DNA of 64,000 nucleotides from Siphonodentalium dalli (Eukaryota > Mollusca > Scaphopoda > Gadilida > Siphonodentaliidae), in the NCBI GenBank assembly GCA_032622095.1, contig CP136066.1, positions 91,657,319 to 91,721,318 of the forward strand, in the 5' to 3' direction. Every line of letters starts with the position of its first letter. Positions within the stretch are counted from its first letter, which is position 1. The notes under the pieces are model-generated. The model saw only the letters and a program-made list of their open reading frames with translations, was not told the DNA's origin and made no database searches. A program made the position numbers and the translations under genes. Below, piece by piece: positions 861-58,800 of the stretch.

Positions 861-861
861 C

Positions 862-1437: not shown

Positions 1438-1439
1438 TA

Positions 1440-3774: not shown

Positions 3775-4956
3775 ATAAATTTGCGGCTGCGGGATAACTC
3801 TATCTAAAAATTCAAAAAAGTAGTAACGAAAAATTGTTCCAATTGATTACCGCATTATATAAGAAAAATTTATATCAAATCAATATTATTTGAAAGAAGC
3901 GGTTTTTTTTACCCATACTTATTATTGTATACTCTTGAAATTATATAAAACCTATTTAGGAAGAGATCCTTGAACCAGCTTGTTCGTCCGTCTGTCCATC
4001 CGTCCATCCGCAGATGCAATTTTGTCCGAGCTTTTTTCCTACATTTTTTTGTCAATTTTTTTCAAACCTGGCACAGATATTTAGTACCATGGGATCCTGT
4101 GAACCTGCGATTATGAGGTCTGTTTGACTTTTTTTGTGTGGAGATCTCCCTTTGGAGTATGCATTGGTATACCTTTGTCCGAGCTTTTATTCCTACATTT
4201 TTTTGTCAAAGTTTTTTTAAACTTTGCACAGATATTTAGTACCATGGGAAACTGTGCCCCCCGGATCTTACTCCCAAACTCCAATCTGGGGACATCATTG
4301 CATTCAATAATTACTCTTAGAAAATATTCTTTTTCTACCAAAACATTGGTACGAATATACAACCAAGGCACTCAGCAATCTCCATACAGCGCCCTCTCAG
4401 TTATCATGTCACTGGCATAGATCACTGCCACAAGGATGGTACTTTGCGGACCGATACGTCTATTTTTACGTATCGTCTGAACTATATTTAGTCACCTATT
4501 TATCTTATTTTGACCACCACTAGTTTGCAAAAATGTTTTTATTTTGGTATTGATAAGAACAATATGAACTGAGCCAGACATGGACAATTTTAATCCTAAA
4601 ATATAAGAACTAAGATCATGTCAGAAATCCGTACAAAATGTCCCTGTGGCAGTGGTGTCTCAGTGGTGTCTGGAGTTTGGGCAGTCCGACGGTCCCAATG
4701 GTCACACTCGTCGAATTGGCTTACATTCCGAGGAATCTACGGAAAGTACCGAGGTGTGCGATTGCGTTGGTCCAGCACCCGATTTTGCTAGACTCGTTGT
4801 GTGTTCGTCGTTTTATAATAAGAACTGTTTTATCGCACCATATTTTGTGCTCCGAGTAGGCAAAACGAGAAAACCCAAATCTTAACAGAGAAAATGTGTA
4901 AACATTGATGTTTTCTGTACATTTTTGTGTGAAATTGTCATTTAAAAGACCTCAAT
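3775..4956. other. Region upstream of exon 1 with 'CCGTCCGTC'-type repeat; promoter not resolved
   Basis: 3930-4440 is an interspersed repeat: two units with 'TTTGTCCGAGCTTTT' and 'CACAGATATTTAGTACCATGGGA' (4023-4100 and 4177-4250). From about 4440 to 4956 the DNA is less repetitive and must hold the TDRD9 5' UTR or promoter if transcription starts nearby. I see no convincing TATA box or initiator, and an upstream untranslated exon is possible. Confidence 0.4.
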
Positions 4957-5129
4957 ATGACATCGAGAGTTGTAGCAGACATAACTCGGGACCAAATCGA
5001 CGATTGGTTCGCAATTGGCAAGAAAACAGTCAGAAAAGTCGAAACAATTCCAAAACATGCACCAAAGGAACCAGACGAAGACGAGACACGTGCCAAATCG
5101 AGCTTCGCGTACACGTCCGCATTCAAAAG
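4957..5129 (+). CDS. TDRD9: TDRD9 exon 1 (start codon, N-terminal leader)
   Basis: Codes for residues 1-57 plus two bases. The segment ITRDQIDDWFAIGKK resembles the start of vertebrate TDRD9 (a 'QINDWFTIGK' pattern), which fixes this as the first exon although it lies 13 kb before exon 2. Joining at AAAAG|GTCCGA gives AFKRS, matching the AFERS-like segment of vertebrates, and restores the frame. The donor GTCCGA is weak. The ATG is the first one in this frame; 'AATATGA' around it is a modest start context. The following residues are charged (KEPDEDETR). Confidence 0.8.
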
Positions 5130-8100
5130 GTCCGATATCTTGACGCATGTGCATATCTTGGATTTTGCTTTTTGTATTACTAAATCATTCTGTGCACCAG
5201 TCCTACTAAAGAACAAACACAAACAAACTAGCGCTGAAACGGATATCCGGTTTACAACCGGCCACCGTCAGCAATCGTTTGAAGTAGGAATCTAGGATCA
5301 ACCGGTTAACCACTATGTAATACACACACGCGATGACAATGACAAAAACTAACGTATTCTGACACGTACTTAATCACCGCCAAATTGAATACAGCAGCTT
5401 GATCAGTTGATCACTCAAGGCTAAAAGTGGTATGCAGTTGCGATTTAGCGTATTCAAAGTCAAAATCTGATGCGAGATCAAAAGTCTTCCATAAATTGCT
5501 GGTTACATAGTCTGGCTTTGGCAGGTTAACATCAAAGATGCATTATGTTGTCATGTTCCGATGTCCGAGGAAACAAGTGCACCGAGTCTTCGGCACAGAT
5601 CAATACAATCGTTTCAATGCAGTGTGCTGTATGGCCTGCAGACTTTCATTTTTAGAAAATGTAGGCGCACATATAGTCCCGCTCGCTGGGTTTTGGGTCC
5701 AGGCGCGCAGTTTCTATCAAGATAAAATAAACAGCGGATTGCCGGAAATACATTCATAAATACCGCGTAAATTGAATTAGTTAACTCACGATCGATGTCC
5801 AGTGAATCTCTTTGATGGTTTAACACTGCTTAATCCACTATCCATAAGCACAAGTGAATGTTACACACTATGTTTTATATTGTACATGCTCCTATATTAA
5901 TTGTAATTAATAATTATTAATAAAGAATCAATTTAATGCTCCATAATATTCCATGCTGACAGAATAATATCAACATCTCCCGGCCACGTGGTCTCGCTTT
6001 GATTTTCCAGGAATTTATGTGACGTCATAAGCCATACATAGAAATCATTCAAATGTATTTTTAGCTTCGAATCATTCAGACAGATAGTGCATTCGACACC
6101 GTGTGACCTCAAATAATTTACTGGTGTCGGTGATCAAACGTCGGGCCGGTTGATCGACACCGCACTGTGAATGGAAAGTTGTGGAATTGGTAAATAGGGC
6201 GCGGCACCTTTGATCTCGCGACACATCATACAGGCATTCTCGCAACGCGTTAATAAAACGGAAAATGGGACACATTATTAACCAATCTCGTCTTGGTAGA
6301 CACTGAAAATAGCGTTATCAGGTTCGGCCAACTTCAGGCGCGCGATGGTGCGCAAGAGCGATCGCGCACCTCAAAAATGAAAGTCTGATGGCCTGTCATG
6401 TGACATCTACTATCCGACTCACTACTAGTAGTACCTATATGGTATCATGGCTCCTCAAGAAATGCGTAAATCGGATGTCTGGGCGGATTTTGTTCTGCTC
6501 GAAGAAAACAAAAAGAAATTTGCAGAATGCAAACTCTGTAGAACCTGATTTACATGTAATGCAGGGTCCAATACTACCTGGGACCAATAATATTTATCCC
6601 AGATACTTCTAACATTACTGAATTTGAGTAATCTCAGTGGATGAAGTTCCAATGAACTCGCATCAAGTGGTGTTTCCATGCAGTTTTACTCGTTTGCAGC
6701 CTAATGGACCTTTCCACAGCTGTCAATCATATACAGCTATGCTCTCAGTAAGCGACCTGTTTAACGAGGTTATGGGCCGGTACTTACCGTGGTGATACCA
6801 CCAAACTACCGCGGTTATCATTCACTACCGCGACGGAGGGCGGTTGACCTGTAGTACTGGTACGGTATTTTTACCGTTGGTTACCGCAGGTCACCGCGTT
6901 ATTGGTGTTCGTTACCGCCATACACCGCGTTATTTTTTTCGTAACCGCGTTCAAATTACCGCTAACGGCCCTCCACCGCGGGGAGACCACGACTGAAACA
7001 AGGCGTCACACGGTAGGTAAATGATTATGAATAACTTTTGTATTGAATGAATACCTGTAAGCTGCACGTAATTATGAATACGTAATGAATATAAACGAAT
7101 AATAATGCAATCGGATTACATATGAACATGTCGGGTTTACATGTAACATATTACAAATGTACACGTACATCATGTTTAATCACGTCGGCAGTTTTTTAAC
7201 TCAGCTATAGTTGCTTACAGCGACTGGATTACGCAAAACACCGTGGAGTAATAGTTTTGTTGTTAGCATCTATCTTACATATCGTCAAATTATTTACGCA
7301 CCCGATTCCTATATCGGTTTCCACTGATTCCGAATTTTTTTTTTTTTTTTTTTGTGTTTCCGAAATCTAAATTTCTTATAAAATGGGAAAAGTAAATCCT
7401 CCATTTATCTGAATTTGGTCGAAACCAGTGGGGACGGTGCATTAGTAACACTGAGTCCGATTTTAGTCTTGGAGGCCAGGGCGGCGATCATTGCAGAAAT
7501 ATTCATATTCGTTCAAATCTATAGTTTTGTTCATATGCCAAACATAATCGGCACGTAAAATTTCGTAAATAGTATATTGTCGCCAAGACGTATGATTGTA
7601 CTCATGCGTGAAATAGTAAAGCAATTTACAAACATTTGCGCCTGAAGATTTCTTGTCGGTGGGAATAAAATGTATAACTAAGAAAGCGTGGCACATGTCA
7701 TGCAGCAAAGTAAAGTTGTTATCATCACCAATGTGCGCGACAAAAGACACGTAAAACACCAAACCTTGAAAGACACAACGTTGTCAAATCAGGCTTTGAT
7801 TTTGTTACGTGAACATTCATTGAGCTCACGAGTGCGTGTCGGGCGGCATCGTTTGATGTGAAATACACTGAAATTGCAACTTTTGGCGAGGGCATGCACT
7901 TGTAGTTCTCGGTGGGTCGCAGTATAAATTATATCACATACCGGTATTCCTATCTAATCGTTATTCGGAAGAAAACATGCATGGTGTTGGAAAGTTGACC
8001 TCTAGATATGTTTGTTTGGTTATATACATATGTTAATATTGTAACATAATTATTTAAAGTGATAGAATTCGGTGTGTTTTAGTCCTTGTTAGTTTAATCC

Positions 8101-11100
8101 CGATACGGTAGCAATAAAGAGCGTTTGTCTCACTTTTGTGCGACAAATATTTAGAAATAGCTATTACGTGCACAACATTTTAAAGATCGAATGAGACTTG
8201 TCTGTTTAAAGCCACGTGGCGGTTCACACATAATATTATTCACAATACCAAAATAGATCAATAAATATCTGAACTACCTTCTGCGAGCATTATGTAAGCC
8301 AAACGGACGCATTGAAGTAATGGAAATACAAGTGTCCAAAACCCAAAACAGCCATTCGCGCGTCACGTGTGTAGTTTTACTAATAGCACCATCAACAAAA
8401 CACAAATATTTATTTCACCCATTGAGGCCAGTTATTAAAAGACATGACAACATCTTAATTTAAGTGTCCCGTGCCCTATATTAACAAAGTCTGCCAGCTG
8501 CAGTATGACGTAATCAGTGACACATGCTTTTGCGTAGAATGTGTTTTTTTCCTGGATATACGGGAGTTCCACTTTGTGTCTGTTATTGCTAAGACAATAA
8601 TTCCCGTTATACGAACAAATGGTGTTTGTGATAATGTGATTTGCAGTTAATGAATGTCAATAAAGTTAATAACGATATTTATTCTGGGGACTATTTAAAT
8701 AGTGTCGTTATCATTCAATTTAGGGATCACGTACATCTGAACATTGACATAAACTGTAGATACAGGATTTATCGAGCTGTCTAAAATGGCCGAAATCATT
8801 TGTTCCCTTCCCGATAACCAACACTGATTACAAATAGTGTCATTTATGGGAATTTTTGGCAATAAAACGAGACTAGAAATGTTATTGTAATATTTTAATA
8901 TTCACATTAATTGAAAAATGACTTTCTCAAAGTAACTTATACTTACCTTTACTTAATCTGGAAGCCCGTTATAATGGGCATATTTCCCGATACTCGGCTT
9001 TCATCTATTTCAATATTTCAATAATACACTTCACGGTACACAATCATGGACGGAGATCGTGAGAACGGCCGTCCTATTTTTGGAAGATTGACGGTCAGCC
9101 ATCGAATCCCGTCATTAACCTAGTTTCAAAAATGCTACCGCGTATCGGTAATGTCACCGCGTTTGTGCAGTGCATTACCGCGTGCCACCGCGCTACCAAC
9201 ATTCGTTACCGCTGGTATTGCGGTGGTACCGTGAACGTCGCGGTGGTACCGCGGTACGCGCATGGTAGTGCAACCGCGAATCCGCGGTATTGCACCGCGG
9301 TATTAACACATGTACACCTCGTTAAAACAGGTCGCTTAATTTGAGCAGTGCTGTATTTATTAGCCGATATTTTCGACCAATCAGCGACTGAGCCGGCCAA
9401 TGGCTGCATTGAAAATTCTGCTGCCATCTTTCTTCACCCTAATTCACTTTACTGCCCAGCGGGGATAACCACGCCTGCCATAAATTGCCAGACTGAAGTA
9501 TAGTGGGTTAGACATCACGCATCGATATGTCTGACCACAAGGAACGACATGTTTCAAATTTGGTGGACTTACCACCAGAATTTGCTGGATTGTTCTTCAA
9601 TTCGACTGGTACTTCATTGAAATCGCGACAACAAGAATACAAGTACTTTAATGAAGGCTACACACATTCAGTTTCAATGTTTATTTGCGGCGACAAACTG
9701 TTTTTCAAAATTTAAAATTTTTGAGAAAGAAAATTCAATCTAAAAATCTAAAAAGAAAATTAAAACTTAAAAAAAAAAAAATTTAAATTAAGTTTTTTTT
9801 ATTTATTTTTGTTCAACAGCAGATCAGAGTTCAATCTAAAAAATTGAATTTAAAATATCAAAATTTGCACGAATCATATACATGAGTCTGTTTCAGCCAG
9901 TGCAAGTGCTGATGTGTTCACTTCGGAAGTTGATCTTGCTTAACAGACAATATTTACATGGGTAGAGTCTTATTACCAGTGGACGGTACTACCGCTGTGG
10001 GCATGATCTCTTTGGAAAGCTCCATTATCAGCATTTGATTATGTTCAATCAGAAAACACTGTTTTCAGCTGATTTCATTTGTTAACTACTTAAAGTTCAT
10101 GAAATTTCATAATGGAGTTTTCTACAGACACACCGACAGCAGTAGTACCGCCCACTGGCAATAAGCCATGTTTGCCCTTATGTTGTAACTAGCTGAAATA
10201 GTCTCCTCGGTGTGCATTGCTTAATACATTTAATTTATGATTTTTTTTTTAACTCCTTTTATATGAACTCCTTGCTCAATTTAACATTTTAATTTAAATT
10301 TAATTGTTTTAATTCTACAAACATTGCTGACTCAATTTAACAAAAATAATAAATAAAATTTAATTAAAAAAAATATATTAAGATTAAAAAAACTAACGGC
10401 GTTATAACATCCGCCTGGGAACCCTGAGTCACCACACCAAATTTGATTGAAATTGGTCCAGAGATCTGGGAGAAAAATTGCGAACAGGCAGGTCCTACTC
10501 TTAGAGTATACATAGCTATAACAGAGAGGTTCTCCTGGAGAACATGCATTCTTTTTGCCTTTAATTGTGAGAATATGATGTTTCATGCAAAATGAAAATA
10601 TGTGTTATAACCATGGATAAATTTCCAACATCATGGCGCAAATAGAATTTCAGTACATTATGATTTGACAACAAACATGTTGTTTGAACAGCCCTGGGAA
10701 TTAAGGAAAATTTGCCTAGGCAATATATTTGCCTAGGTCAAAGAAATTGTCCTAGGCAAAAACAGATTTTGCCTAGGCAATTTTGCAACAATATTGCCAT
10801 CTCAAATCAATATGATTCAATAATAACCTGAATTACTTAAGTTATTTTGGGGAACATTATTTCCAGGCAACTACTCAACATACAGGTATGTGCAATTCCA
10901 CAAATCATCTCCAAAACAAGTGTCCATATTTCGGGTAACTAGTAAATGGCCCAGTGCCATGGAAATAATTGTAGGACAATACATGTAAAGAGTGATTTAA
11001 GGAAGTCATTTTGGCTAGAGGTTCTATTTCTGATAGACACAAATCAATTTTAGTAACCCAATGAACTTGTTTTACCTAGGAAATATAATTGCCTAGGCAA

Positions 11101-14100
11101 ACCGATTTTGCCTCTGCTTTTACCTAGGCATTGCCTATTGCCTAGGCTAATTCCCAGGGCTGTTGAATATAGCCAATTTAACACTGAATATATGCATGGA
11201 TCTCATAATTAGGGTGAAGAAAGATGGCAGCAGAATTTTCAATGGCCATTGGCCGGCTCAGTCGTTGATTGGTCGAAAATAATTATTTGATTGACAGATG
11301 TGGAAAGGTCCATTGTGCTTAACTGCCGTCTGTCATTCTTATAGATGGCGCACATCTGTATCTGTATATGGTTTCAGTGCAGGATCCTGTCGGGTGTATT
11401 AGCACACGAGATGAGACTATGACGTGCGGTCTGCCTTGATTAATTCGAATGGTTTGGAGTTGATACACTCCAGACTTTGAACAAAGTTATTTGCAGTGAA
11501 GCCGTCAAATTTTTTGGCCTTAATTTTTCTACCACTTTGATGTTTAGGTCTCAAGAGTCCTTTGGTGTCGATAGCTGGGACCAGCCCATCCACTATCTAT
11601 TAGCATTCATCTCAAAGCACAGAGACGAACAACGTGTAGTTAGAATACCTGAGTCACATGACCTACTATAAATCACCAATATCCAAGTCCCACAATTGCA
11701 AAAATTACAATAAAAAGTTTCGGTGATTTATGCAAATTTAAATAGATCACGCAATATTCTTCCCAAACACAAACAATAACAAGTCAGGGAGCAGTCGCGA
11801 CTACAATAGAAACAGGTCAAGCATGACACGTCTATTTATAAACACTGAGTTTTAGTTCACTGCCATCTGTCAAGTTGTCAACGTGTTACGTGTAGCTTAT
11901 TACCAGTCGATTTTTGGTGATTTACTTTCATTTAACCCTTTAACCCTTTTAACAGTTATGCCCTGTGCCAATGCATTCTCTTATATATGCGAGTCGACCA
12001 TAGGTCGCCTCACATATATAAGAGAATGCACTTTTTACCATTTTTTCTTACATTCTTTAACAATTTCATAATTTATTTTTACCTTTTTTAACAATTTTTT
12101 TAATATTTTTCTACATTCTTTGACAATTTTATCTATTTTAATATGTGTTAAGCCAATGCATTCTCTTATATATGCGAGGCGATGTAACCATCACAATGTG
12201 GTCAATGAACATGTTCCAATGATATCCATATTTGTATGGTGTTATTGAGACAGACCGAAGATATTTTAGACTGTTGAAGCTTTATTTGGGTGTTTTTGGC
12301 CGTTTTGTTGGGTAAAGGGTTAATACAAGCTTTGTCTGTGTAAACATTGTGTGAGTTCGCCGTACAGTTAATATACCTTATTATGGTGATATCTTGGTAC
12401 TTATTATGGTGTAAACAATGAGTGTAAAGTCATAGGTTGAAAATAGCAGATATCCGATTATGATCCGGTTACACATTGCGGTTAACTGGCTACAAAAATA
12501 GGTCAACCGTTTCAGCACTAAAACGAACGCAAGTCCAAAAAGCAGAAAAGAAGGGTCCACCTTAATGCAGCAAGTCCTTTGAAATGCAGCAAGTCCCCCT
12601 AGAAATGCAGTCCCTCTAATTGTTGATGAGTTTAATCAGTGTTTTAACTTTTATTATCCATTTGATTTATGATCTGTGGTAGTTGATTGGAATCTTTATC
12701 CCTTTATAATTATTTAAGATGGGTATTTGTAGATTTTTAATAATAAAATAAAAGTTTTAAGTTACTAAAAACCCTATATTCATATTATTAGCATCATTGT
12801 CCCAAAAATAGGTGTCTCATTCTTGGAGCTTTGGTGTCTCAGTCCTCGAGCTCTAGTGTTTTTTTTATTAAATCAGCATCTCTTGTACAGATCTATAGTA
12901 TTTCCATGGTCATATGTGCGAATGTGGTGTCACTGGTATACTCAAAAATTGAAGAAACTCAAAGTCGCCCCGACCAATACAGAAGGTAATGTTATCGTGA
13001 GTAGCCCCAACTAATAGAGAAGATAATATAATGCTATCGTGTGTCGCCCTGACTAATACAGAAGGTAATGCTATCGTGAGTAGCCCCAACTAATACAGAA
13101 GATAATATAATGCTATCACGAGTCACCCCGACTAATACAGAACGTAATGTTATTGCGAGTAGCCCCAACAAATACAGAAAATAATATAATGCTGTCATGA
13201 ATCACCCCTACTATAACAAGGTAATACGATCGCGAGTCGGCCATTTTCATAAAGAAGTTAGGCCAGCTCCCTACCCATCCAAACCAATGAAAACGAGGTG
13301 ATATGTCAATGTAGTTATGGTTAAGTAATGGATAAACCTATTTATTCACCAGGGGTGTTTAGTTACATATAACCATGAATTGCGCTTAAGTGCAATTAAT
13401 TATTAAACGTGAATTTGGACTCTTTGTTAATTACACATCTCTGAGTTGTTTTGACTTTATTTCATTCGCTCTAAGACTTTGTTTAGGGATATTGCACCTT
13501 CTTTGAAAGTCAGACACAAAATTCGGACAAACATGACAGCAGAACAACGAAACAGAGGGTGCGATTACATCTTAATTTTGTGACTTACAATTCCAAATCC
13601 CAAACATCAACTGGTGGACAATTAACAAGCTCTACTGCATGATAGAGCAGTGTGATATATAGAGAATATCCGCATAGTGCAGCTGAATAAAGAATTTATT
13701 TTTGCGAGTATGTGGGTATCTATTTGGCGAGCCAAATAGATGCCCACATACGAGCAAATATAAATTCTTTATTCAGCTGCACTATGTGGATGTTCTGTTT
13801 ATTCACCGGATAAATTTAAATGTATTTTATCGCTGTTTTTGTCAAAAAACATCGCAAAATTCACAGGCTCCTTATAAGGAAGCGATGACCTACTTAGCGA
13901 CTTTATCTGTATAGTAGAGCCTAATTAATTATGAAACAGTTGTGTATTCATGCGACTGCGCCGCGAAATAGTCCGCCATATAATTTCTAAATTATGCCGA
14001 AAAAATATCATAGCATGGTGTAATTTATAATAAAATCTAAATGATTTGCGTAACGTTCAAATCTAAAACTGAAATGTACGAATATATCAGTTATGTGAAT

Positions 14101-17100
14101 TTGGATGTTTGTGCTTGAAACTTTTTAATGAATTGAATGAATTTTGAAAGTCTGAATTTTAGCAGTACTTAGCTTCTAGCACCAGCACTAAGATCGGCAG
14201 TGCAAATGTACTACTACCAGCTCACGGAAGAATATCTTATACTTTATATAGTAACAAACTGCCAATTACTTAATCATGTTATATATTTTACCAACTGAAC
14301 ATTTAAAAATTATATTTGAGTGTGTTTTGGGGCGCATCCTCGTGATCTTTTAGAAAGTTGTTGCACGAAAATACGTTGTGTATGTTGACGTTTCTAAGGA
14401 CGCTTTCACTAACAACGGAAACCAGCATGGTCCGTTCTAATGTTGCTCCGTAATGTTGTTACGACCCAGTGACGTCACTCACGAACTGCTGGAGGTTAAC
14501 TGCTCCAAGTTCTTGTAACCTTTCTTCCTTGCATATTTTAAGTTTATCTGTCTAGTAGAGGATGCTTTATCTGTCTAGTAGACGGATAGAGGCGTGGTTT
14601 ATCTGATGGGCTTTATCTGTATAGTAGACAGGGGTAGGAGGTGGATAAATATATATATCTGATCAATCTGTATCAATTTTCCTACATATCATCTAAGCTG
14701 ATAAGAAAAATTCTTTATTACTGGTCACATGCAAACAATGTGGGTCAGAAAGAAAATGCACATCGCGCACGAATGGATAACCATCTCTCAGATATTCGAT
14801 TAGATAATGATTTCTGTGTTGCAAAGAATTTCAATTTGTATCATGTTGAGAAATTATTAGTAGTACTTCTCATAATCGTTCATGTATCAATGACAAATCT
14901 TAAACTCATTAATAGCGAGTTCCAAAGATACATCTATGTAAGAAATCGTGCCAGCGACCTGAGCCTGTGCCGACTTAATTTTTTCCAAAAAAGTTAACTT
15001 TAAATACGCATGACTTCTACAAAGTCTGCTGTTCCCAAGCCCTTTATGCAGATAAAGGCTGGGAGAGTTAAACAAAGTCAAAACAACTCAGTAATGTGTG
15101 ACTAACAAAGTGACAGATTAAGCCATATGAGAGTAAGCGGTAGTTAATTAAAACCTTGATTAATGCCTTATAGTACTATATGGTCAATGTTAGGTTCATA
15201 TGTGTTCGTTGTTTATTAGGACCCCCTGCACACCCAAGAGGCCAACTCCCTCATCCGATCATCAAACATCATGATGATCTTCTGGTAGTCATACACTATG
15301 ATGATAGCATACAAGGTGTGTGTGAGTTGCGAGCGAAAGTCCCCCCTCCCGAAAATACCAGGACATTATTTTTGTTATTGTCATTATGCTGTATTTTAAA
15401 TATATGAATATGTCCATGTATATATTGTCAATAAAGAATTAAAAAAAACAAAATAAAACAAAATAATGATAGCATACAATAATAATTATTATAATCTATT
15501 ATATATTTTGAAAGATCTGTGTGTGTGTGTGTGTATCTGTCTGTGTGTGTGTAATCGATGGACTCGAAAATGGCCCAGCCGATTTCGATGAAACTTGGTA
15601 CGTGGGGGTATTTTCGGGTCAGGAGTAACATAGGCCTATTGATTATCAGATCCGAGGTCAACTTTTCACGTGCCGAGGTCAAATCTGTTTTTACGCCGTT
15701 TTGCGCTAATATATTTCAGTTTGGTGCTCACAAATCGATTCAATATAGTGCGAATAATAAATTGCCAGTCATATAATTTGCACGGTTAGAATCTGTGGTG
15801 CTTCATCTTTCCAATGATGTATCACACGCCTGTGTACGTTTAAAGTTTCTACCTTAATTATCGGGAAGAACGCAGGACCATGCTTCGCTCATCGAAAATC
15901 ATTGCGTAAATATATTACGCCATCAACATATCGTGACGTGATCGCGTTAACTCTTAACCGGCCGATGTCGCGTTAACTCATCACCGGCCGAGGTATCCGC
16001 AAATGACATTGGGCTATATATCTCGGAAACGGGTGGAGCTATCGACTTGAAATTTGGTATGTGAATGTATATTGCCCCGAATACGAATTTTATCGGGTCG
16101 CCGAGCCCGTGCGACGCCAGCTTCGCGCATGCGCAGACCAGATCTCGGAAACGGGTGGAGCAATCGACTTGAAATTTGGTTTTTGAATAGCCCGGACGAA
16201 GTCGGGTCACCTTCTAGTTTATATATATAATAGCCAACAATATTAATTCTTATAATTTATATATATAATTTATAATTTATTATAACAATATAGGCCTATG
16301 TATTGTCATCCCGTATGACTAGATCTTCGGGGTGACATCCAGATGGGTGCCATCAAAGATTTTACTCTTTCTATTAGCAACCGTAATGTAATGACGTCGC
16401 GGCCAGTTTCCTATTCTGCTCTAGATATATGTAGTAAATTTCACCACTGGATTTTGTCAAATTGATAGTAATATAAATAATAGTAATAATAAATATTTAC
16501 AAATAGAAACTTAATAAAAGACAAGGACTGTAACTAGAGGATTAGTGATTTGACATACATGTATACATTTTTATTAATAATTATTTGACTTGAAAATAGG
16601 TAAATTTAAACACAATATTGATCGTTTTGATTCCCAGATACATTGCTATTATGACTATTATATATCAATCTGACCACCTGTGAATTACATTTAGCATTGC
16701 ATTGACTATATCACCTTACGTTCTCTTTATATCCACATGATATCATTTGCGAAGCGATTTTCTGTCTTCTCTTCTATAGTTACTGGTGTCCCTGGGGGTC
16801 CTGGCAAAATTGTCGAAGCTCTCGAGAAATCTCTTTCGAACAAATGTCTGAATATTTTGGCCCAAATCTTGGAAATGTTACTGACACTGTTGCTCTTTTT
16901 CTCATCCAGATATAACAGTGTTGTGTCACATTAATAAATAATATTCTCTATGCACACTTGTTTCGTCCACTAATCAATTTGAATTATATGTGCAGTTCTG
17001 TTTTTAAAGGTACTCAATCCGACCAGAGGGTCCCCATCTCAACAGATTCCAACAACAACAATCCGATCAGAGGGTCCTATATTACTATTCTTTGGCTTTG

Positions 17101-20100
17101 GTGGTAAAAAATATTTGATTCGAGTCGAGGAACCCATCAAACAAAGCTCAGAGTTATTAGATATTGATTTTTGAAAATTCTTATGTTCTCGAGATGAGTA
17201 CTAATAATTGCCGTCAATTTCGTTTCCTGCTCGAGATTTGTACACCAAAACTCTATTCAAACAGACAAGGATGGATAACTCTAAAATCAAGTGGTAATAA
17301 TAACGCAATTTTGACTGAGATCTGGGCCAGAAAGTATTCCCGATAATGAAAAATAATAGATTTCTAAAATCGATATCTAACAAATCTGAGCTTTGATGGG
17401 TGACTTTCTCGACTCGAATCAAATATTTTTGACCCCCGAAGCCATTGAAATAGTAATTGAGAGGAGTTTTATCGGATTGAGTACCTTTAAATCCTGTTTG
17501 AATTTACAATAAAATATCATTAATTTAAAAAAATTAACCGTTTAAAACGAAAATCACATCTTTGAATAACAACATCGTTAGTAACATTTACATGCCCTGG
17601 AGATATTTGGAGATTCCTCAGCCCTTTTATTTTATGTGTACAATTTTGCCCACACACCGGTAACTTATGGGGAAGTTATGCGCATGGCCTTCATGAAGAG
17701 AAGACAGAAAATCGCTTCGAAAATGAAACCTGGTGTCACAGGGATATAAAGAGAGCATATGGTGCTATAGTCAATGCGATGCTAAATGCAAGTCACAGGC
17801 GGTCAGATTGATGTATAAAAGTCATAATAGCAATGAATATTGGGATCGCCACGATCGATAACGTGTTTACCATTTTTGATTTTCGTGTTGCGAAAAGTTA
17901 AAAAAAATATTACGCAAATCGCTAATCCACTAGTTTCGACCCTATTCTTCATATTACATATATGTCTTATCCATATTATATATTTATTATTATTTACTAG
18001 CATCTTATCAAACCCCTGTGATTTCATTTTGAATTTTTATTTTTTATTTTGATAAATACTCAATGGTACGAAAAATAATTTAGTGAAACAACGAAGTCTC
18101 CATTTGAATAAAATTTCTGCAGTGAACACCCAGACAATTGTTTAGCTAGAACCCTTATAACGCCATGTTTTTACATTGAAATTGCGACGTTTCCGACTAA
18201 ATCCTGAAAAATTACCCATAATTCTGCTGTGGTTAAAGAGTTGATTATTTAGGGCATTACTTTACATGTATATTGTATATAAAATTACCGGGTATTCTAT
18301 CCTTGATATTTCCATGTTTCTTTCACAGAAGCGAGGATTTTAATCAGAGAGATTATGTGGAACAGTATCAGAAGGAGGAGGAGCAGAGTCTACTGCAACA
18401 CAATCAGGTATAAGTTAACCCTTTGAATATTGAAGGTCATGATGAACACTCATTAACCCTTTGAGTGCCAGGGGCCGATCTCATCGGCCCTAATTTACAG
18501 TGTGGAAAATCGGCCATAAAAAATAATCTTTTTTTTTGTTTTTGTTTTTTAAAAAAAGATTTTTGTTTTTTTTTGGGTTGAATTTTCAGCCTTCATAATT
18601 GGCTACGGCAATCAGCATTGCCGTAGCAGATTGCCGAAGCCAAACAATCTGAATTAAGAGGGCTGAATTTTTTTTGGGTATGCTTAAGCATGCTATATCG
18701 AATTTAAAAACAAACTGGATAAAACCTTAGGGGCATGTTATCACTCAAAACTATCACCATGTATTCATAGTAATAATTTTGATGCCCATGAAAAACGTAA
18801 GATTCCCTGGCACCAAACCTACAAAATAAGTCTGTTAAAGAATATAAGACAAAATTACTAAAATTGTAAAAAATTGTAAAAAATAATAACAAATGATGAA
18901 AAATGTTAGGCCAATGCATTCTCTTATATATGCGAGGTGACCTATGGTCGACTCGCATATATAAGAGAATGCATTGGCACAGGGTATATGGGTTGATACA
19001 AAAATCGGACCTGGCACTCAAAGGGTTAAAGACATATTATGGACATGTTCGAGTGCTTGAAACTGAGTCAGTATTCAGGCGCTATGCTAACTGGAGGAAT
19101 GTAGCATTCTACTAACATTGCCGTAAATCTCTAGCAAATCGACCATGTACCATTCCATAGAAAACATCGTCTGTACTACGAAAATTGTAAATATTTACTT
19201 CTCGATTTGGGACGCAACTGTCGGCGATAGACTAATGACAACAATTTCGCCATCAAGAGTCACTGCATTTAGTTAATAAGTATGACGTTGTTTGTTGTCA
19301 ATTTGGATATATAATAGTTGTAAAAGTAACTACTTTGAGCAAGATTATTCTCCTTTTCTATTTGATCACCATACTGGAGTGGTTCATATCACTTTAATTA
19401 TTTTACTGAATGAAATTAAATTTGGTATGTGAGTTTACTAGCCCGAAATACAGTTCAAGTTCAAATTTGGGTTCCACCTATCAATTTTTACCAGAGTTAC
19501 AGCCCTTTGATATGAATTACCACAGGCATATTTTTCCGTTGTTGCAAACATGTGCATACTCTGGAGTGTTTATCAGGACCCTGAGAGTACAGTAATGGCC
19601 AAAGTATATGACCCTTTAACCACAGCAGAAGTATGGGAAAAAAATTCAGGAATTAGTGTGGAAATATGGCTTGTTGCCATTTATCAGAAAGCTCTGACCG
19701 ACAGCTTTTCGATGAATGGCAACATGCCATATTTCTGAGTAAATCCTGAAAAAAATTCCCATAATTCTGCTGTGGTTTAGGGGTCGATTATTTAGGACAC
19801 TACTGTACTAAGTATAATTTGAGGCTTCAAGCTGTCTTGGGCCTTCAATTTAATAAATTTTTCACTTTTCCAGCCTTCAAGCAGCCAGAGCAGTGGGGTT
19901 CATGGCATTGCACATTCTCTCGAGCAGCTGGAGATGGGGAGTGTTGCGAGCGCGTCTGTCGCGGGGGATTTTTTACCAGATCTGATCCCCGAGAATGCCA
20001 CAGAGGTGTACAGCCACTATGAATTTGAGCACACTTACGATCCCAAACTGCCGATCACGCATCACCGTGATGATGTGAGTATAATTATGAATTCATTCAC

Positions 20101-44100: not shown

Positions 44101-47100
44101 GTATTATATGTGTTTTGGTATTTATCAAGTTATTTTCACCAACATGAATAGCGATAGAACAAAAGTTTGACACCGAGCATGAATGATGATGGATGCAAAG
44201 CCCATGCCAAAATGTTCATCTCCATTTTATAATAATACGTCACATTTGAAAACTTAAAAAAAAAGAAGACTAACACATCCAACATGCGTTCATGGCTTGA
44301 AAAAAAAAAAACTCAAGTCCACTTCTCACTTAACCCGGGTAAGATGGGATATACACATGATTTTTTAGGAATAAAAGTAGAGTCGTCACACTATACCGGT
44401 TAGCACTTGAAACGGCCCGGTATTGTGGTATTACTATATATATTAATCATATGATTTGGTTTCAATAATGATCAGGGGGGGGGGGGGCTCTGTGGCTCAG
44501 TTGGTAAGGTGCTTTGCTCCAGACCCACTCACTCTCTAGCAGTGGCGATATTTGTTCAATTCCCAGTGGAGTCAATCTGACTTTGTATCCCATATCGCTA
44601 TCTGGGTGAGTTGCCAGTTAATACCTGATGCTCTGTGTTTCGCTGTGCACAATGGGTCATTCTGCCAGCCAATGAAATCATTGCTAGATTTACCTTAGTG
44701 CACAGACTTTCCCTCAACCAATAAAATTGTTAACTGTGTGATATTGCCCTGGCTACTGAAAGTGACGTTAAAACACCAGTAAATAAATAAATAAATCAAT
44801 GATTAGTCAATGAAAGTTTTTTTGTTTTTTAAATTTTTTATTTGAACCAGAAAAAACAGCAACATACATAACATGTGTAATACAATTTAAACCTGCAAGT
44901 ATAATATACGTACAACATGATTCAGTAGTATATATGTGGTTTGTACTTCGTTCAGTTCCGCTGAAATCACTGGTTCTTTTTTAAGAGGAAAGAAAAGGGT
45001 ATAGGTATATATAATATATATATAGAAGGATGGTTAATAAGATATAGAATATGAATATAGTTGGGAGAAAATAGCGTCTTTACATGAGTTCATTGAGAAA
45101 AGTAAAATGGTAGTATTTCATGCATAACATCTTAGTCAATGAAAGATGCTGATACGACACCAGAACCGTTCAGTAATTAACCTGATATTGTATATGGAAA
45201 TGAGGCCTGAAAATTACTGACGATGTTCATTCATTTCAGATTGGTGCCTTGTCCACACCTTCAGCAGCTGTGACCAACCGATATGATGGTGACCTGACGT
45301 TTGTCGGTCGTGTCTTGAACTCCCTACCTGTCGATGTACGCATTGGGAAACTACTCGTGCTCGGACATGTTTTTGGATTGTTAGATGAGTGCATCATAAT
45401 AGGTAATAATGTAGGTGTCGCGCTATCGTGGCCTAGATCATGTCATGAATCTTGACTCTGGCTACGCCCGTAGACATCGTCATATACCACCAGACAGGCA
45501 ACTTTATAAGGCCAAATAAAAAAAGGTGTTTGTTTCTCAGAGAATTTTCTTTTCAAAAGTGATGAGGGAGGCAGGTATATGATGTTGATATTATTTATTT
45601 CAAATTTTTCAGATGAGGGAGGCAGGTTTTTGTATATTATAATTTTAATGATACTGTGTAACAAAACACTAATTATTCAAATTTCTGATCCATATAACAT
45701 GGAAAGCCTTAGGTGGTGGACATGTAGCTAAATGATAATAGTTCTGAAATGGGAAAGGATCCAGTCAGTCTGACACTATATTCCATTTGGGAAGGAATTT
45801 ATATATGCAATTAGAAATGATATGGAAGCAGACAAATTTTATTATTTTTTAATTTTTAGGGTCATTATACCCAATGAAAAGTTCAATTTTTTTTATAAAG
45901 AGCATGCACGTTCTTCTAATTTATTCACATGAGGGTCTATAAACCACAGTGCATTGCAGATCATGTTAATAAAATTCATGCCAATGCTCTGGACACTGTC
46001 CTTTTGAAATCCAAGTGTTCTCATTTCATTGAAACATGCAAAGTCTCTCGATAAATCATCTCTTCGCAGTTTGCTGTTGCATGTTGGAAATACGGTACTT
46101 TCCTTCATCATTAGAAGTTCAAAAGCATTTTTTTTTTTTGAATACATGAATTGCCAACATAATTTGTTGTCATCCTTTTTAGCTCAACTTTACTTTGTAA
46201 AGTTTGAGCTATTGCCATGGCTTTGTCGTCCGTCGTCCGTGTGTGCGTGTGTGCGTGTGTGCGTGTGTACGTGTGTACGTAAGGCGTCAACAATAGAGGC
46301 TACAGGTCGTACCTTTGATCGGATCATTATGAAATTTGTCATAGCTGTTGACATCAACATTTGTACCGGAATGATTCATTTTGGGGACATACGGAAAAAA
46401 AACATGGCCGCCAGCGGCCATCTTAGATTTCAAAATTCAATCCATTAGCACGGGCTACAGGCCGTACTGTTTGTCTGATCGTCATGAAATTTGTCATGGA
46501 TGTTAATATTGACATGTAGATGGGAACGAGTAATTTTGGGGTCATTCGGCCAAAAAACATGGCCGCCAGCAGCCATCTTCGATTTTACTCTTTGCATGAC
46601 TAAATCCTTTAGCACGGGCTACAGGTCGTACCTTTAGTCAGACCATCATAAAATTTGTCATGGATGTTAACAATGACATGTAGATGGGAACGAGTCATTT
46701 TTGGGTTATTCGGGCAAAAAACATGGCCGCCAGCAGCCATCTTGGATTTTACTCTTTGTATGACTAAATCCTTTAGCACGGGCTACAGGTCGTACCTTTA
46801 GTCTGATAATCATGAAATTTGTCATGGCTGTTGAAATTGGAATGTAGATGGGAACGAGTCATTTTGGGGTCATTCGGACAAAAAACATGGCCGCCAGTGG
46901 CCATCTTTGTTTTCAAAATTCAATCCATTAGCACGGGCCACAGGTCGCACTGTTCGTCTGATCATCATGAAATTTGTCATGGATGTTAATATTGACATGT
47001 AGATGGGAACGAGTCATTTTGGGGTCATTCGGCCCAAAAACATGGCCGCCAGCAGCCATCTTGGATTTTACTCTTTGTATGACTAAATCCTTTAGCACGG

Positions 47101-49814
47101 GCTACAGGTCGTACCTTTAGTCTGATCATCATAAAATTTGTCATGGATGTTAACAATGACATGTAGATTGGAACGAGTCATTTTGGGGTCATTCGGCCAA
47201 AAAACATGGCCGTCAGCAGCCATCTTGGATTTTACTCTTTGTATGACTAAATCCTTTAGCACGGGCTACAGGTCGTACCTTTAGTCTGATCATCATAAAA
47301 TTTGTCATGGCTGTTGATATTGGAATGTAGATGGGAACGAGTCATTTTGGGGTCATTCGGACAAAAAACATGGCCGCCAGTGGCCATCTTTGTTTTCAAA
47401 ATTCAATCCATTAGCACGGGCCACAGGTCGCACTGTTCGTCTGATCATCATGAAATTTGTCATGGATGTTAATATTGACATGTAGATGGGAACGAGTCAT
47501 TTTGGGGTCATTCGGCCCAAAAACATGGCCGCCAGCAGCCATCTTGGATTTTACTCTTTGTATGACTAAATCCTTTAGCACGGGCTACAGGTCGTACCTT
47601 TAGTCTGATCATCATAAAATTTGTCATGGATGTTAACAATGACATGTAGATTGGAACGAGTCATTTTGGGGTCATTCGGCCAAAAAACATGGCGTCAGCA
47701 GCCATCTTGGATTTTACTCTTTGTATGACTAAATCCTTTAGCACGGGCTACAGGTCGTACCTTTAGTCTGATCATCATAAAATTTGTCAAGAATGTTAAT
47801 AATCACATGTAGATGGGAACGAGTCATTTTGGGGTCATTCGGCCAAAAAACATGGCCGTCAGCAGCCATCTTGGATTTTACTCTTTGTATGACTAAATCC
47901 TTTAGCACGGGCTACAGGTCGTACCTTTAGTCTGATCATCATAAAATTTGTCATGGCTGTTGATATTGGAATGTAGATGGGAACGAGTCATTTTGGGGTC
48001 ATTCGGGCAAAAAACATGGCCGCCAGTGGCCATCTTGGATTTCAACATTTAATCCATTAGCACGGGCCACAGGTCGTACTGATTGTCTGATCATCATGAA
48101 ATTTGTCATGGATGATAATATTGACATGTAGATGGGAACGAGTAATTTTGGGGTCATTCGGCCAAAAAACATGGTCGCCAGCAGCCATCTTGGATTTTAC
48201 TCTTCGTATGACTAAATCCTTTAGCACGGGCTACAGGTCGTACCTTTATTCTGATCGTCATAAAATTTGTCATGGATGTTAACGATGACATGTAGATGGG
48301 AACGACTCATTTTGGGGTCATTCGGCTGAAAACATGGCCGCCAGCAGCCATCTTGGATTTTACTCTTTGTATGACTAAATTCTTTAGCACGGGCTACATG
48401 TCGTACCTTTAGTCTGATCATCATAAAATTTGTCATGAATGTTAATAATGACATGTAGATGGGAACGAGTCATTTTGGGGTCAATCGGCCAAAAAACATG
48501 GCCGCCAGCAGCCATCTTGGATTTTACTCTTTGTATGACTAAATTCTTTAGCATGGGCTACAGGTCGTACCTTTAGTCTGATCGTCATAAAATTTGTCAT
48601 TGATGTTAACGATGACATGTAGATGGGAACGACTCATTTTGGGGTCATTCGGCCGAAAACATGGCTGCCAGCAGCCATCTTGGATTTTACTTTTCTCTTC
48701 ATGTCTATAAACTAGTATTAGACATTCAACTTTCCACATTCCTAATCGCTCCATTGACTGTAATATATTAAATTATTCCCTTTCCAAGTTGAGCTACAGT
48801 GTCATTGACACTTTCATTTATAATTATTTTGATTTGTATTTATCGACCGAACATCTGAACGTTGATGCAACATCAGAGGCATATTTAACTGTTCATCAAC
48901 ACAATCAAAGTCCGATGTTTTCAAGTTTGAAACGCGAACTTGAAACAGTGTGAAAAGTGATTTCAGAATTGTTCGCCTGAGTTTCCTCTCGGTATTCAGT
49001 AAGAATTATCAGTTTCTTTTCGTCAATAACCTTCTCCCAAAGGAATTGAAAAGAATGTGTATTAGGGCATGATATAACTGTCCATGGTACAAGGTGTTGA
49101 AGAGGTGCTCCCAGCTTCTTTCCAAACACGGCAATATTTAAGAGCGTGGCCATTTTTCATACAGGAAACAATGAGGTGTGCTCGATCTCGCAACCCGCAA
49201 TCCGGTCAGTTGTACTTTTACCACCAAAGAGGCATAACTCTATATACCTACATTGCTTTCATCCTGCCAATCTCAACGGTGAAAATTGGGAAGGCGCGGT
49301 AGGGTAGTAAGCTTATTATCAGCCGGCGATAAAAAGTGCCAATGCGCACAGTTTTTTAAGACGCGGAGGTCCTTGAGAAACGTAGTTCCTTTTTTATTTG
49401 GCCTAATATTAAGAAAATATTAACCTTGGTAATATATTTATAAGTTGATACCTGTTCATCAATAATGTATTTCACAACAGGCTTTTGTAAGCTGACTTCT
49501 TTTTGAGTCGCTTACAATCATAAGATTTCCCACATAATCAATTCATGTCTATTGTGAATTTGGCTCACAAAAGTTGCCTAAATCATGTAATCTTGATTAG
49601 GTACCAATACATACTGTGAAATGCATTATTAAGAAACAGATATCAACTAAACATTAGGCCAAAAAAAAAGAAGAGTTTTGTTTCACGGGCAATTTTTTTT
49701 CAAAACGATGAGGGAGGGAGGGTTTTATTTTTATTTTTATGTTTACCCATACCATAGTATGGTAAACATAGTGTCGTTGTCCGGATTGACCACTCGTCGT
49801 TAGTCCGTCCGTCC

Positions 49815-52800: not shown

Positions 52801-55800
52801 AAAACACCTCTGTCATGAACATGATTGATTGGCTTGGACAACATGGTGGCAAATTGTATTGAGTTTTAACAGAGTAATTTCAAATTGGATTTTCAAACTT
52901 GCATATACCAGCCTAATATTATACACAAAGTCTGAAAAATAGATGAATTAATAAGAATACTGGCTTTTTCACCTCAAAATATATTTAAATGACTATAAAT
53001 AACAACCTTAGGCCAAAATTAAAAAATTGTTGTGGTTCATGTTTCCCTACCGACCCTATTTTAAACTCATGGCTTGTTTCTTGTGTTTGTTTTTTTACAC
53101 TTGTTACAGTGTATACAAAGAAAAAATGATCTATCTTACAGAAGACATGAAAAGCCAATAAGAATATGTCAAAATAAAAAACATTTTAGGCACAAAAAAA
53201 AGGGTTTTGATTCTCGGGCATAGCATAGCCGCGTCTGGAAAAAAGGCCCGTGTTGAACCATTTTATTACGATTTTCAAATGATAACACGAAAATAGGAAA
53301 CAAGAAAAGAGAAATTAGTTATGTTTCAAACATCGAATATGATAGACATACAATGGTGTATGTGTTGGTATTCAAAAACAGACACTAGGCAACGATAACT
53401 ACCAGGTATATTGTCACCACAAGCTGCCCAAACCCCAAGTTTATTAAGTCAAATGCGTTTGTTGTTGTTGTTGTTGGCATCATAATCATATGTAGCTGAT
53501 TTCCGCGAGGTAAACAATTATGATATTTCCAATTTCGGGAACGCAAACCGGAAAGAAATATGGTGCGTATTGGCAATGTGTATGCTGGTTTAGTATAATA
53601 GTTTTTATGGCTAGCATGTATAGTAACTATAAATGGATAAATATTAAAGTATATAGATAGATATAAAATTTATAATCCCGATTTAAACTTTTTGTTTGTT
53701 TTAGTTCCGTTTCCGTCTTTGTGGTATTCAGTGTTTTATATATACGCAGTAACAGAACGCGAACGGACCTCAAATAATTCTGTCCATGCATATTCTCTTT
53801 AAATTCACCGATGTTACTGAATATATTTGGCTACAAAAGTATTCAAGAGCACCATTTTATAGTGTGCAAATATATATTTAATCGTTGTATTTTGGCTTGT
53901 TGGAAATAAAGCGTGATCCATAACCGAAAAATCGTAATTTTATTCCCAATGATTCAGTGATTTTAGAAATTAGAGACACTCGGTAGTCGGTGTCAAGGCC
54001 GTTAATTGTGCATAGATGTACTAAACTGTGAATACTATCGAAAGGGTGTGCCTTTGAATGCAGAAAATCAAGAAACAGGTAACTGAGGTGTGGCAGATGC
54101 AAACCAAATGCAACAAACAGTTGCAATTATGAAAGTAAACAGGTCTGATATAAATAGATATATACTATAAAAAGGTACATGCATATATCAAATATATCAA
54201 CAATGGTTCAGTAAATTGAAATATACATTGTACTAGTATATATATATCATTCTGGTAAATCCCTACCTGATGTACGGATAGTACAATGTCATATATTTAT
54301 GTCATTCTTTATTTCAGATTTGATGTACGGGTAGTATAATATGATAATTGGTCATTCTTTATAGTGGAATACATTAGTTTATATCAAAACAATGTTCTCC
54401 TTAGATTTTCTTAACCTGGGAAGGTATAATAACCCATGCTAACTATGGGCATTATCCCCATAATAAAAATAAAACCCTCGCTCCCTCATCGATTCTCAAA
54501 AAAAATTGCCTGAGAATCAAAACAATTTTTTTTTTTGGCCTTAATAAAATAAAATTTTAAACATTGTACTACCTTGTACATTGTACTTGGCCTTATCACT
54601 TATCACCTGAGAAAATGTTTTATATTTGGCCTAATATTTTCTCTTCAATTAATTTCTAATAGGAGCTGGATTGTCACAGAAATGTATCTTCACGAGACCT
54701 CTGAAGAAACCGTTGGAAGCTTATGGGTAAGTTCAGCAATCAGAATGGAGAAACCGTTGGAAGCTTACAGGTAAGTTCAGAAATCAGAATGGAGAAACCG
54801 TTGGAAGCTTACGGATAAGTTCAGCAATCAGAATGGAGAAACCGTTGGAAGCTTACGGATAAGTTCAGCAATCAGAATGGAGAAACCATTGGAGGCTTAC
54901 GGATAAGTTCAGCAATCAGAATGGAGAAACTGTTGGAAGCTTACGGGTAAGTTTAGCAATCAGAACAGGCTTGTCAAAGTACCGCCGGTACCAAGGTAGT
55001 CGGTACCAGTACCGGTACTGTGTTGGAACCGCGGTACCGGTACCGGTACTGGTGTTGCATTGTTTATTCCACTACATATCACACATTTAAAAGAGTATAT
55101 TCTAATGTGGTCATTACTGGTATTGTATGGCACTTTGTGCCAGTTTTTGGTGATTGTTGTGGATGACAAATACAACCATGTCAGACTATCCTAATGCACG
55201 TATGCCACAGTAGCCACACATAAATGTGTGACATACATGCATTAGTATAGTCTGAAATAGTTGGATTTATCACCCACAACAATCACCTAAAATGTGCCAT
55301 AATTTAGGCAGCCTGATAGGTGTTAGAACTTTTATGTTTAGGGCTTCAGGCGCTCAAATACATACATCGGAAAGATGGGTATATATGTGGTGAATGACAA
55401 TTTAAACTGAAATAAGTTTTATGTACCTGCAAGGCTGCAATACTCTTATGTAAGTTATAATGTAACACACTGTTCCACTTACAAGCACAACTGACTAGAC
55501 TGATGCAATAATTTGTTGACGGGTCACAGGTCACGTGACAGGTCACAGGTGCCGACATCAAATTAATCAAACTCAAAGGAAATACAGAGTGTTCCAGACT
55601 TCCGTGCATGGGCGGTTGGATTGCATTGATCCGCCGGGCGGATCAATGCAATCCCGCCCACGCACGGCTGTCCGGCTGTTCCCTATGATGTCGGCATCTG
55701 CCACCGCGTGCTTGATCCGTTGACACAATCATAGTAGCATACCATAATGCAAGCGGCAGTTGCGGCACACTTAAAAGAGCAAAGTTCCTTCAATTTTAAT

Positions 55801-58800
55801 CGATCTATACTGATATATTTACTGTTTTTGGCGAGTACAGAGAACCGTCGGTACTGAGTATCAGAACCGGTACCGTTGAAACGGCCAAGTACCGCCGGTA
55901 CCGGTACTGGTACCGGTTGACAAGCCTGAATCAGAATGGAGAAACTTTGTTGTGTCCAGAAAGTCCCAACAGAATGCCCATCATATAAAGTTGATAAATT
56001 GTTTGATTTCACATTGTGATTGATGCGGACGAAGATGAAGATATGGTTGTATTAGTTTATCAGTCTCTCTGTCCATCTAGCCATCTGTCCGTCGGTTAAC
56101 ATTTTTGGTTTCCGACTCCAGTTTGGATTATTTTATCAGAACAAAAGTTGATATGTGTGTTTCTGAACCTAAACTACAGGCCAGGTTCGAACATGGGTTT
56201 CATCCAATTATTTTTACATGAGTTACGGCTAGAGCTGAAACGGTTGACCCATTCTTCTAACCGGTTAACCATCGGGGTTAACCGGATTTCAACCGGTTAA
56301 CCGCTAAATTTCTAGCGGATTTCTCTCACACTAATTATGTCGACATTATGCCATGCTCCAGGGACAAACCTATAGGTGAAAAGTAGTAGCTGAAATAAAG
56401 ACCTTATTCACGGCATTTAACGATATTCAAAAACACGCATTCACTGTTCTTTTGCTGGCTCTCGTGATGGGGAATGAGCAAGTGAAATTTGTGAATGGCA
56501 GGAGAGATCGCTTATTTGCCGTGATCAGCATATGTTTGGGCATTTGTAAAACGAGTAAAATAGTATGGGTATTGGTAAAACGAGTAACAAAACTATATAT
56601 TAAAGATCTGTAATATATCATTATCATCATTGGTATATCCTCCAATGCATTATATATAAAGACAAGAAAGTAATAACTAGAGAACAAAAAGGAAGGTCAG
56701 TTAGGTCAGACTCGCAGTCCTATTCAGTATTCGAGCTATTCGTCGGTATCATGATAGCGGACACTAGTGTTGGGAGGTTATATAATTTACGTTTCGGTTT
56801 TGGTTTCAGTTTTAGTATGCAATCACTTAACATATAGCAATTACTGCCAAATTGAGTGTTAATTAGTCCCACAGGCACAACCAGTTACAGAGTAGCATGG
56901 AGCATCAATTTCCTTGATAAAAGGGAAGATTATTGAAGAAGTTTTGAGTTGCTTCAACTACGATGTCTGTTTGGTCACTCAATTGAATTGATCATATTAA
57001 ATCACAACAGGGAGGAAGAACGGGAAGAGTGAAGACATTGTGCAGCTGATCTCAATCTTCAAACTTTGTCGACTTACATAGTTTTTAGCTCACCTGAGAC
57101 GAAGTCTCCGGTGGAGCTATAGTCATCACTCCTCGTCCGTCGTCCGTCCGTCCGTCAACAATCATCTTCTCGTCCCGAACCGTAAGACTTAACGTGTTCA
57201 TATTTGGTGTGGATGTTCCCTAGGTGAATCACATTCAGATTTGTTCAAATGTGGTCACTGGGTGGAATAGTTGTGAAAGCAGGGCCATAACTCTATTCCT
57301 CCATAGTAATTCTTAGAACGACTTCTTTTACTGAACTATAAGGCCGTATGGATTCATATTTGGTGTGGATGTTCCCTAGTTGACTCACATTCAGATTTGT
57401 TAAAATGAGGTCACCAGGTTGATTAGTTGAGAAACCAGGGCCATAACTCTTCCTCCATAGTAATTCTTAGAATGACTTCTTCTTTTGAACCATTTGACCG
57501 ATTTAGCTTACATTTGGTATGGAGAGTCCTTGTGTGACTGTGGTTCAGATTTGTTCAAATGGGGTCACTGGGTCAAATAGGGGCAGAGCCAAGGCCCAGG
57601 GACATAACTCTTAAAAAAAAGTTAATTCAAATCCTTGTTTTAAACCCTTGCCCCCCCTCCACCCCACCTCCCCCACCAATGCATGTCCCTGCCACCCCAC
57701 ACCAGAGATCCCTGCAAGGTTCACCCCATTAAAAGCCTTACACTTTAGTTATGACATGCCAGGAACGGGTTGGTCTCACTTTGCAGACATGCGGCAGGGG
57801 ATTAACTCAAGGTGCGACCGACTGTGTTGTTACAACGCTGGCAATTAGGCCGATCCAAGTTAAGTGTGGTGTAACTTGTGTCCAGGCCCCAGGCCAACTT
57901 GTCAAAGCTAAGGCTAGGTAACTGTTGTCACTTGTATTTCGCGCATATGTAAGTTACACTAACTAATGTTCATCGTGAATATTTAGTGTTGTGTCCAGGC
58001 CACATTAAACGTCTTTATACTGTTGACACTTGTAAGTTACATTTGATTTGATTGATTTATTGCTCCACCAATAACACATGGTATATGACAAGGTACATAA
58101 TATGAATGTAACATACATTAGTCAACAATATATATACATATATACAAAGATGAATTTTACCGAACTGGCTAAGTGGCACTGGGTATAAAATGCAATGAAT
58201 AATTTCAGTGCGGTAGTATTTTCCTTTTTTTTTTACAATGAAACGGGATTTACATAACAAAACGGAAGTACTAGCTCTTTCCATTATGTTCTGTACCTCC
58301 AGCTTCACTGCTTCCTTCGTGTGAGATTACTATTTTATCCGTTTGAATGCAAGTTTGAGAAATATGCAAAGTCGTTTTAGTATTGACACGTTACATATAG
58401 TTAGTAAATCGTGGAATTTCTCTCTAACGGGATATTTCCAATAAGATTGTGGAATGTATTTCTCTCTGAGTTCTTTAATTATGTCACATTCTAAAACAAA
58501 ATGGAATTCATCCATCTTCATGTTTAATATTATCTTACAAAACTTGAGATGAATCTTTTCAAGACAGTCAACATTTTCGAAACCCCATATCTCACTTCCA
58601 TAGAGGATGATAGGTAAAACTGTACGATCAAACAATTTAAGTGACAAGTCAATAGCCAGATTAAGTTTATATTTTTTGTTTAAGAGTCCGTACATAGCCC
58701 TTGTTGCAACCGTGCACGTTTTCTTCACTGCTTGACAAAAACGTCCATTATGAAAAAATAAAACACCAAGGTACTGAAACTCAAAAATCAATTTCTTTGT

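Follow-up and report, generated by a model that had tools for sequence, protein, structure and literature searches.

Within a window of 64,000 nucleotides from the scaphopod Siphonodentalium dalli, the donor of exon 17 in a predicted spindle-E/TDRD9 helicase gene has been multiplied by a 44-bp tandem array, which is probably a tolerated minisatellite that arose by slippage, the donor at 54727 making most of the mRNA and the decoy donors a minor product with a premature stop. The arrangement looks more like a by-product of slippage than like an evolved switch, and a close human precedent exists. Word searches of open papers found no report of this array. The features are collected in Table 1; a slash marks a boundary between exon and intron or between joined exons.

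Table 1 Features of the exon 17 region, with positions in the window
Feature	Position	Strand	Basis
Predicted exon 16, spindle-E/TDRD9, HA2 region	45240..45402	+	In-frame join to exon 17; translation similar to Spindle-E; genome match
Predicted exon 17, 64 nt, ending in the 22-base exonic half of unit 1	54663..54726	+	AG before 54663, GT at 54727
Unit 1, coding copy, donor TGG/GTAAGT at 54727	54705..54748	+	Unit alignment; U1 duplex -9.8 kcal/mol
TAA in frame upon use of donor 2 or 6	54728..54730	+	Translations for both donors
Unit 2, decoy donor CAG/GTAAGT at 54771, full consensus	54749..54792	+	U1 duplex -11.6 kcal/mol
Units 3-5, with AT in place of the donor GT (CGG/ATAAGT)	54793..54924	+	Unit alignment; U1 duplex -5.0 kcal/mol
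Unit 6, 41 of 44 bases, decoy donor CGG/GTAAGT at 54947	54925..54965	+	U1 duplex -10.9 kcal/mol
hAT-like non-autonomous element, 963 bp, ends CAGGCTTGTC...GACAAGCCTG	54966..55928	+	Flanked by the 8-bp target duplication AATCAGAA
Remainder of the array past the insertion, with the second target copy, the missing bases of unit 6 and the right-hand AGAAAC	55929..55945	+	AATCAGAATGGAGAAAC, then unrelated TTTGTTG
Predicted exon 18	63541..63604	+	TTTTACAG/ACAGAGACGG, in-frame join; genome search match

Host gene and predicted exons

Judged by its translation, the host gene is a spindle-E/TDRD9 helicase. The joined exons 15-18 aligned over 141 residues and gap-free to Spindle-E (PDB 9nhs_G) with 149 bits and an E-value of 8.2e-43, and the runner-up in this search, which covered PDB sequences only, was DHX29 with 59.6 bits. 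One residue of the query, at the junction of exons 15 and 16, was off (V for the true I), with an effect that should be negligible. The first-pass annotation had called the gene TDRD9, and the call is borne out by Spindle-E as the best PDB similarity, clearly ahead of other DEAH helicases. The Pfam family HA2_C (PF21010) was found at residues 76-135 of the joined piece (2.6e-06) and the DEAD domain (PF00270) in an upstream piece of the gene (9.6e-16), while exon 17 by itself (21 aa) matched no Pfam family. The in-frame join of exon 17 yields DECIIIGAGLSQKCIFTRPLKKPLEAYG/QRREWADD, which has no gaps against the Spindle-E of 9nhs_G. Exons 17 and 18 are in frame when joined, the intron between them having 8,814 bp. 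About 5 kb beyond the end of the window lies a 41-residue piece with residues 741-781 of Spindle-E as its sole PDB match, a weak one (E 0.0037); joined to another piece it gave no PDB match at 0.001, and it hit no Pfam family above the cut-off.

A search at the protein level with the three exons 16-18 against the 2.2-Gb assembly gave three matches at E <=0.001 (nine candidates scored), all of them exons of this gene, and a second gene copy was rejected on these grounds. Since the searched exons match only the host gene, no paralogue was found that could cover for it. Severe loss of the helicase would probably be costly.

Layout of the array

Tandem Repeats Finder described positions 54705-54965 with a period of 44, 5.9 copies, 94 % matches and 0 % indels. 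Six units start at 54705, 54749, 54793, 54837, 54881 and 54925; each consists of 22 exon and 22 intron bases, and the sixth was shortened by a transposon. Six such copies, arranged as a repeat, are plainly not chance. They form a donor-containing minisatellite, with head-to-tail units in the range of 10-100 bp that include the donor of a predicted exon. The earlier observation of a 44-bp array stands, but its division of the unit into 23 and 21 bases has to be replaced by 22 and 22. The consensus of the units is AGAAACCGTTGGAAGCTTACGGGTAAGTTCAGCAATCAGAATGG, in which G and A were tied 3:3 at donor position +1 and G was taken. From this consensus unit 1 differs in one base and unit 2 in two; units 3 and 4 do not differ from each other, each having the single change of donor GT to AT, to which unit 5 adds two private changes; unit 6 has two differences, its last three positions, which are insertion bases, being excluded. 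Units 3-5 carry GGATAAGT in place of a donor. The unit alignment agrees with the first-pass annotation on the donor states, GT kept in units 1, 2 and 6 and AT in the others, and on the donor strings of the coding copy and of unit 2. A word search of open papers for AT-AC introns with ATAAGT donors returned nothing useful.

The right end of the array is split by an inserted element with matching ends of 12 bp, which combines an 8-bp duplication with short terminal inverted repeats and which we take to be hAT-like from this duplication and its CAGG ends. Its left end occurs in at least 39 further places of the genome among the matches scored (40 of 202 candidates). Three of seven other fetched loci contained a same-ended complete element with perfect 8-bp duplications, the remaining four none under a strict end search. 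An imperfect palindrome of about 150 bp lies inside the element at about 55144-55292. The target duplication restores the continuity of the array across the insertion: positions 55929-55945 hold the missing end of unit 6 and six bases of a would-be seventh unit. Read from the sequence, the insertion of the element is later than at least the right end of the array.

Origin of the units and later substitutions

The motif AGAAAC stands at the unit start in the exon (54705-54710) and returns as the final matching bases of the far flank, thus a direct repeat of 6 bp, with its copies 44 bp apart, flanks the unit. The right-hand copy is now split from the array by the element. A direct repeat of 6 bp at a distance of 44 bp is an ordinary seed for slippage, and the anatomy of the array points to this process. 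One mutation followed by copying suffices for the three AT units, because the change is common to the identical units 3 and 4 and to unit 5; the AT units are best read as one change spread by duplication. That G is the older base at donor position +1 depends on the coding copy, as three units have G and three A. Counting the common AT change once, eight distinct substitutions are required across the units. Half of them are transitions that fall on the unit's two CpG sites, which make up 4 of its 44 bases (P = 0.0035, post hoc). Among the CpG-site changes are TAC to TAT in the coding copy, silent for tyrosine, and CGG to CAG in unit 2, which produces the full consensus donor; the difference between the coding TGG and the decoy CAG amounts to two CpG transitions. 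For the tyrosine codon in the coding copy, TAT may be the older state.

Selection against strong decoys had been put forward earlier as one possibility. The three AT units do not show such selection: of the changes, seven lie outside the coding unit, and the chance that at least one of them falls on a donor GT is 0.28, and as a single event with copying is enough, no selection against decoys need be invoked. The donor states also bear on an evolved switch. Under this reading the array would set the dose of TDRD9/spindle-E through competition between the decoys and the coding donor, the outcome of which a splicing factor would shift from soma to germline. Strong decoys with a built-in stop would suit such a switch, and SRSF1 is able to shift the choice among neighbouring donors (PMC5585400). 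It is improbable all the same, for there is no sign of constraint, the donor states are obtainable by CpG decay and copying, and a transposon sits in the end of the array; on the sequence, a dose switch is unsupported.

The observed/expected ratio of CpG was 0.67 over the gene span (19800-63604) versus 0.96 in the preceding 20 kb (1-19800). The lower ratio across the gene would fit gene-body methylation in the germline, and the drop is in line with the gene-body methylation described for oyster mantle (PMC4378273).

Rarity of the array and base rate

The array had one match in the 2.2-Gb assembly in a search that skips very common words (one candidate scored); a second array copy and an uncollapsed haplotype were both rejected on this single match. 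Tandem repeats as such are common in the window, where 32 merged arrays span 6,089 bp. Another array, at 46298-48691 in the intron before exon 17, consists of 14.8 units of about 164 bp, or alternatively has a period of 483 bp. Random placement of the arrays (20,000 trials) gave on average 1.41 over the 24 predicted splice sites, an incomplete list from the part of the exons that was modelled, and at least one in 78 % of the trials. One was observed, thus an enrichment of arrays at splice sites was dismissed, and an array over a splice junction is unsurprising in such a repeat-rich gene. The persistence of an array over an exon end should nevertheless be filtered by selection.

Donor strength and predicted outcome of decoy use

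The energies of the duplexes with the 5' end of U1 (Table 1) are a crude gauge of donor strength. Units 2 and 6 rank first and second among the 573 GT sites of the intron, the coding donor excluded, and one further intron site, at 62576, equals the coding donor with -9.8 kcal/mol. Among the 13 donors predicted for the gene, that of exon 17 shares the top place with 40348, both at -9.8 kcal/mol; by this measure the two decoys therefore outdo every authentic donor examined. The earlier suspicion that unit 2 could compete is strengthened by its U1 energy, which is better than that of the coding donor. The six U1-complementary stretches within about 230 nt could also be thought of as a platform that keeps the 8.8-kb intron from being cleaved and polyadenylated too early, and U1 is reported to silence early polyadenylation sites (PMC6946686). 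Against this function stands the weak pairing of the AT units, and we consider it very improbable.

Use of donor 2 would extend exon 17 to 108 nt and use of donor 6 to 284 nt. Both translations end in ...EAYG and then stop, because the donor's own TAA comes to lie in frame directly after Tyr-Gly; with a unit of 44 nt and the in-frame TAA at 54728, the retention of one unit already truncates. The decoy product would end after residue 120 of the 141-residue piece, inside the HA2_C match, so that the truncation before the end of this region that the first-pass annotation had foreseen is confirmed at the level of translation. Nonsense-mediated decay of the stop-bearing decoy RNA is to be expected. 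Another conceivable outcome is that unit 6 or unit 2 would be spliced in as a nascent microexon of 27 nt (ATCAG/AATGG...), with nine in-frame residues repeating EKPLEAY. The stretches between ATCAG and the donor are 27 nt long, at 54744-54770 in unit 2 and at 54920-54946 in unit 6, and these pieces, AYGMEKPLEAYRQ and AYGMEKLLEAYGQ respectively, keep the frame. The candidate acceptors have no polypyrimidine tract, however, and just 17 nt lie between donor 1 and the acceptor of unit 2, which makes a microexon hardly credible.

An exon of 108 nt is closer to the usual exon size than one of 64 nt. Together with the stronger decoys and the preference for intron-proximal donors, this means that the dominance of donor 1 is not predicted by the sequence alone. 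Where two donors are comparable, the choice tends to fall on the intron-proximal one, for a reason that the source states as not known (PMC6002489); in DOK7 the proximal donor was preferred as well, but was also the stronger one (PMC5585400). RNA structure is of no clear help in this respect. The mean unpaired probability from RNA folding was 0.51 for donor 1, 0.40 for unit 2 and 0.33 for unit 6, and the fold of the array was unremarkable (z-score -1.0, 16 of 100 shuffles folding equally well). With accessibility so similar among the units, a stable structure masking the decoys was rejected. Between 54000 and 57000 no known structured RNA was matched in Rfam at the gathering score.

Comparable systems and proposed mechanism

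The closest known case is the VNTR in intron 18 of human ABCA7, a tandem repeat that, as here, includes the donor of an exon, in this instance exon 18 (PMC5954066). When splicing there shifts to the donor of the next unit, one unit is retained, with a frameshift and a premature stop subject to decay as the result, which again resembles the situation described here. The ABCA7 unit has 25 bp, begins with the GT and lies within the intron, whereas half of each 44-bp unit is exonic in S. dalli. The human array is highly polymorphic, with about 12 to about 427 units, and its units differ slightly from one another; the present array is described from one assembly. In 2 +/- 1 % of the ABCA7 transcripts one unit was retained. 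VNTR length had no influence on this retention, unlike on the skipping of exon 19, which goes up with length (PMC5954066). The low and length-independent share backs a dominance of the first donor also in the helicase gene, as far as the analogy carries. The 2 % is a steady-state figure, and cycloheximide, which blocks decay, substantially increased the stop-bearing transcripts (PMC5954066); the true use of donor 2 may therefore exceed an ABCA7-like level.

The same data have to be weighed for an unregulated splicing load, in which units 2 and 6 supply the donor for a sizeable part of the transcripts in all tissues and lower the helicase output to a degree that varies with array length among individuals. 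Their rank as the top two U1 matches of the intron, the frequent advantage of intron-proximal donors (PMC6002489, PMC5585400), the immediate stop met by the extended exon and the rise of stop-bearing ABCA7 forms under a decay block (PMC5954066) all speak for it. A heavy loss would, however, hit the piRNA pathway, as the searched exons match only this gene, and in ABCA7 the retention of one unit stayed at 2 +/- 1 % irrespective of VNTR length, which did affect the skipping of exon 19; we regard a substantial load as unlikely, though less so than a switch.

Other systems share single traits with the array. Internal tandem repeats in human duplicated genes likewise include arrays at exon-intron boundaries that alter splicing, with 27 manually inspected intron modifications (PMC2812944); these concern recent paralogues and possibly novel introns, whereas no second gene match and no new intron was seen here. 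In the intron gain of a potato RdRp gene, discussed under the AGGT model, a tandem duplication over a splice junction also carries splice signals along, but there the duplicated intron-exon (acceptor) boundary gave a new intron, while here the donor side was multiplied and none was seen (PMC4974935). Neighbouring donors compete for U1 also in exon 1 of ER-alpha (PMC6002489) and in intron 4 of DOK7 (PMC5585400), in both cases as two separate donors and not as a repeat array.

For the tolerated minisatellite that we prefer, the following course of events is proposed. Replication slippage or misaligned repair between the exonic AGAAAC and the intronic AGAAAC 44 bp on would have seeded the array, the initial duplication taking the exon end, the donor and the intron start together. 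Further unequal exchange may then have led to six units, in the course of which a single donor-killing change of G to A spread to units 3-5. CpG decay would subsequently have turned CG into TG at the coding donor and into CA in unit 2, and the hAT-like element would afterwards have split the right end of the array. We infer this order of events from the present state of the units. In the living animal the first donor would supply most of the mRNA and nearly all of the productive mRNA, while units 2 and 6 would give a minor, prematurely stopped product that is cleared by nonsense-mediated decay. The array would persist because the first donor, set by the acceptor of exon 17 and by exonic signals, works well enough.

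Significance

A donor-competition device in a helicase of the piRNA pathway, in which the level of U1 or SR proteins or the number of units sets the output and hence the control of transposons in the germline, is improbable. Were it real, small changes in U1, SR proteins or unit number would set the helicase output, because the coding donor is weaker than the two stop-bearing decoys, and a transposon would itself be lodged within the array that governs transposon control. Independently of this, the gene offers a naturally occurring set of almost identical donors, which follow a single acceptor at intervals of 44 nt and vary at positions -3, -2 and +1. The searches revealed no second copy of the gene, and the set constitutes a natural test of donor order against U1 strength. 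The array indicates that a minisatellite can take a splice junction along, apparently without destroying the gene.
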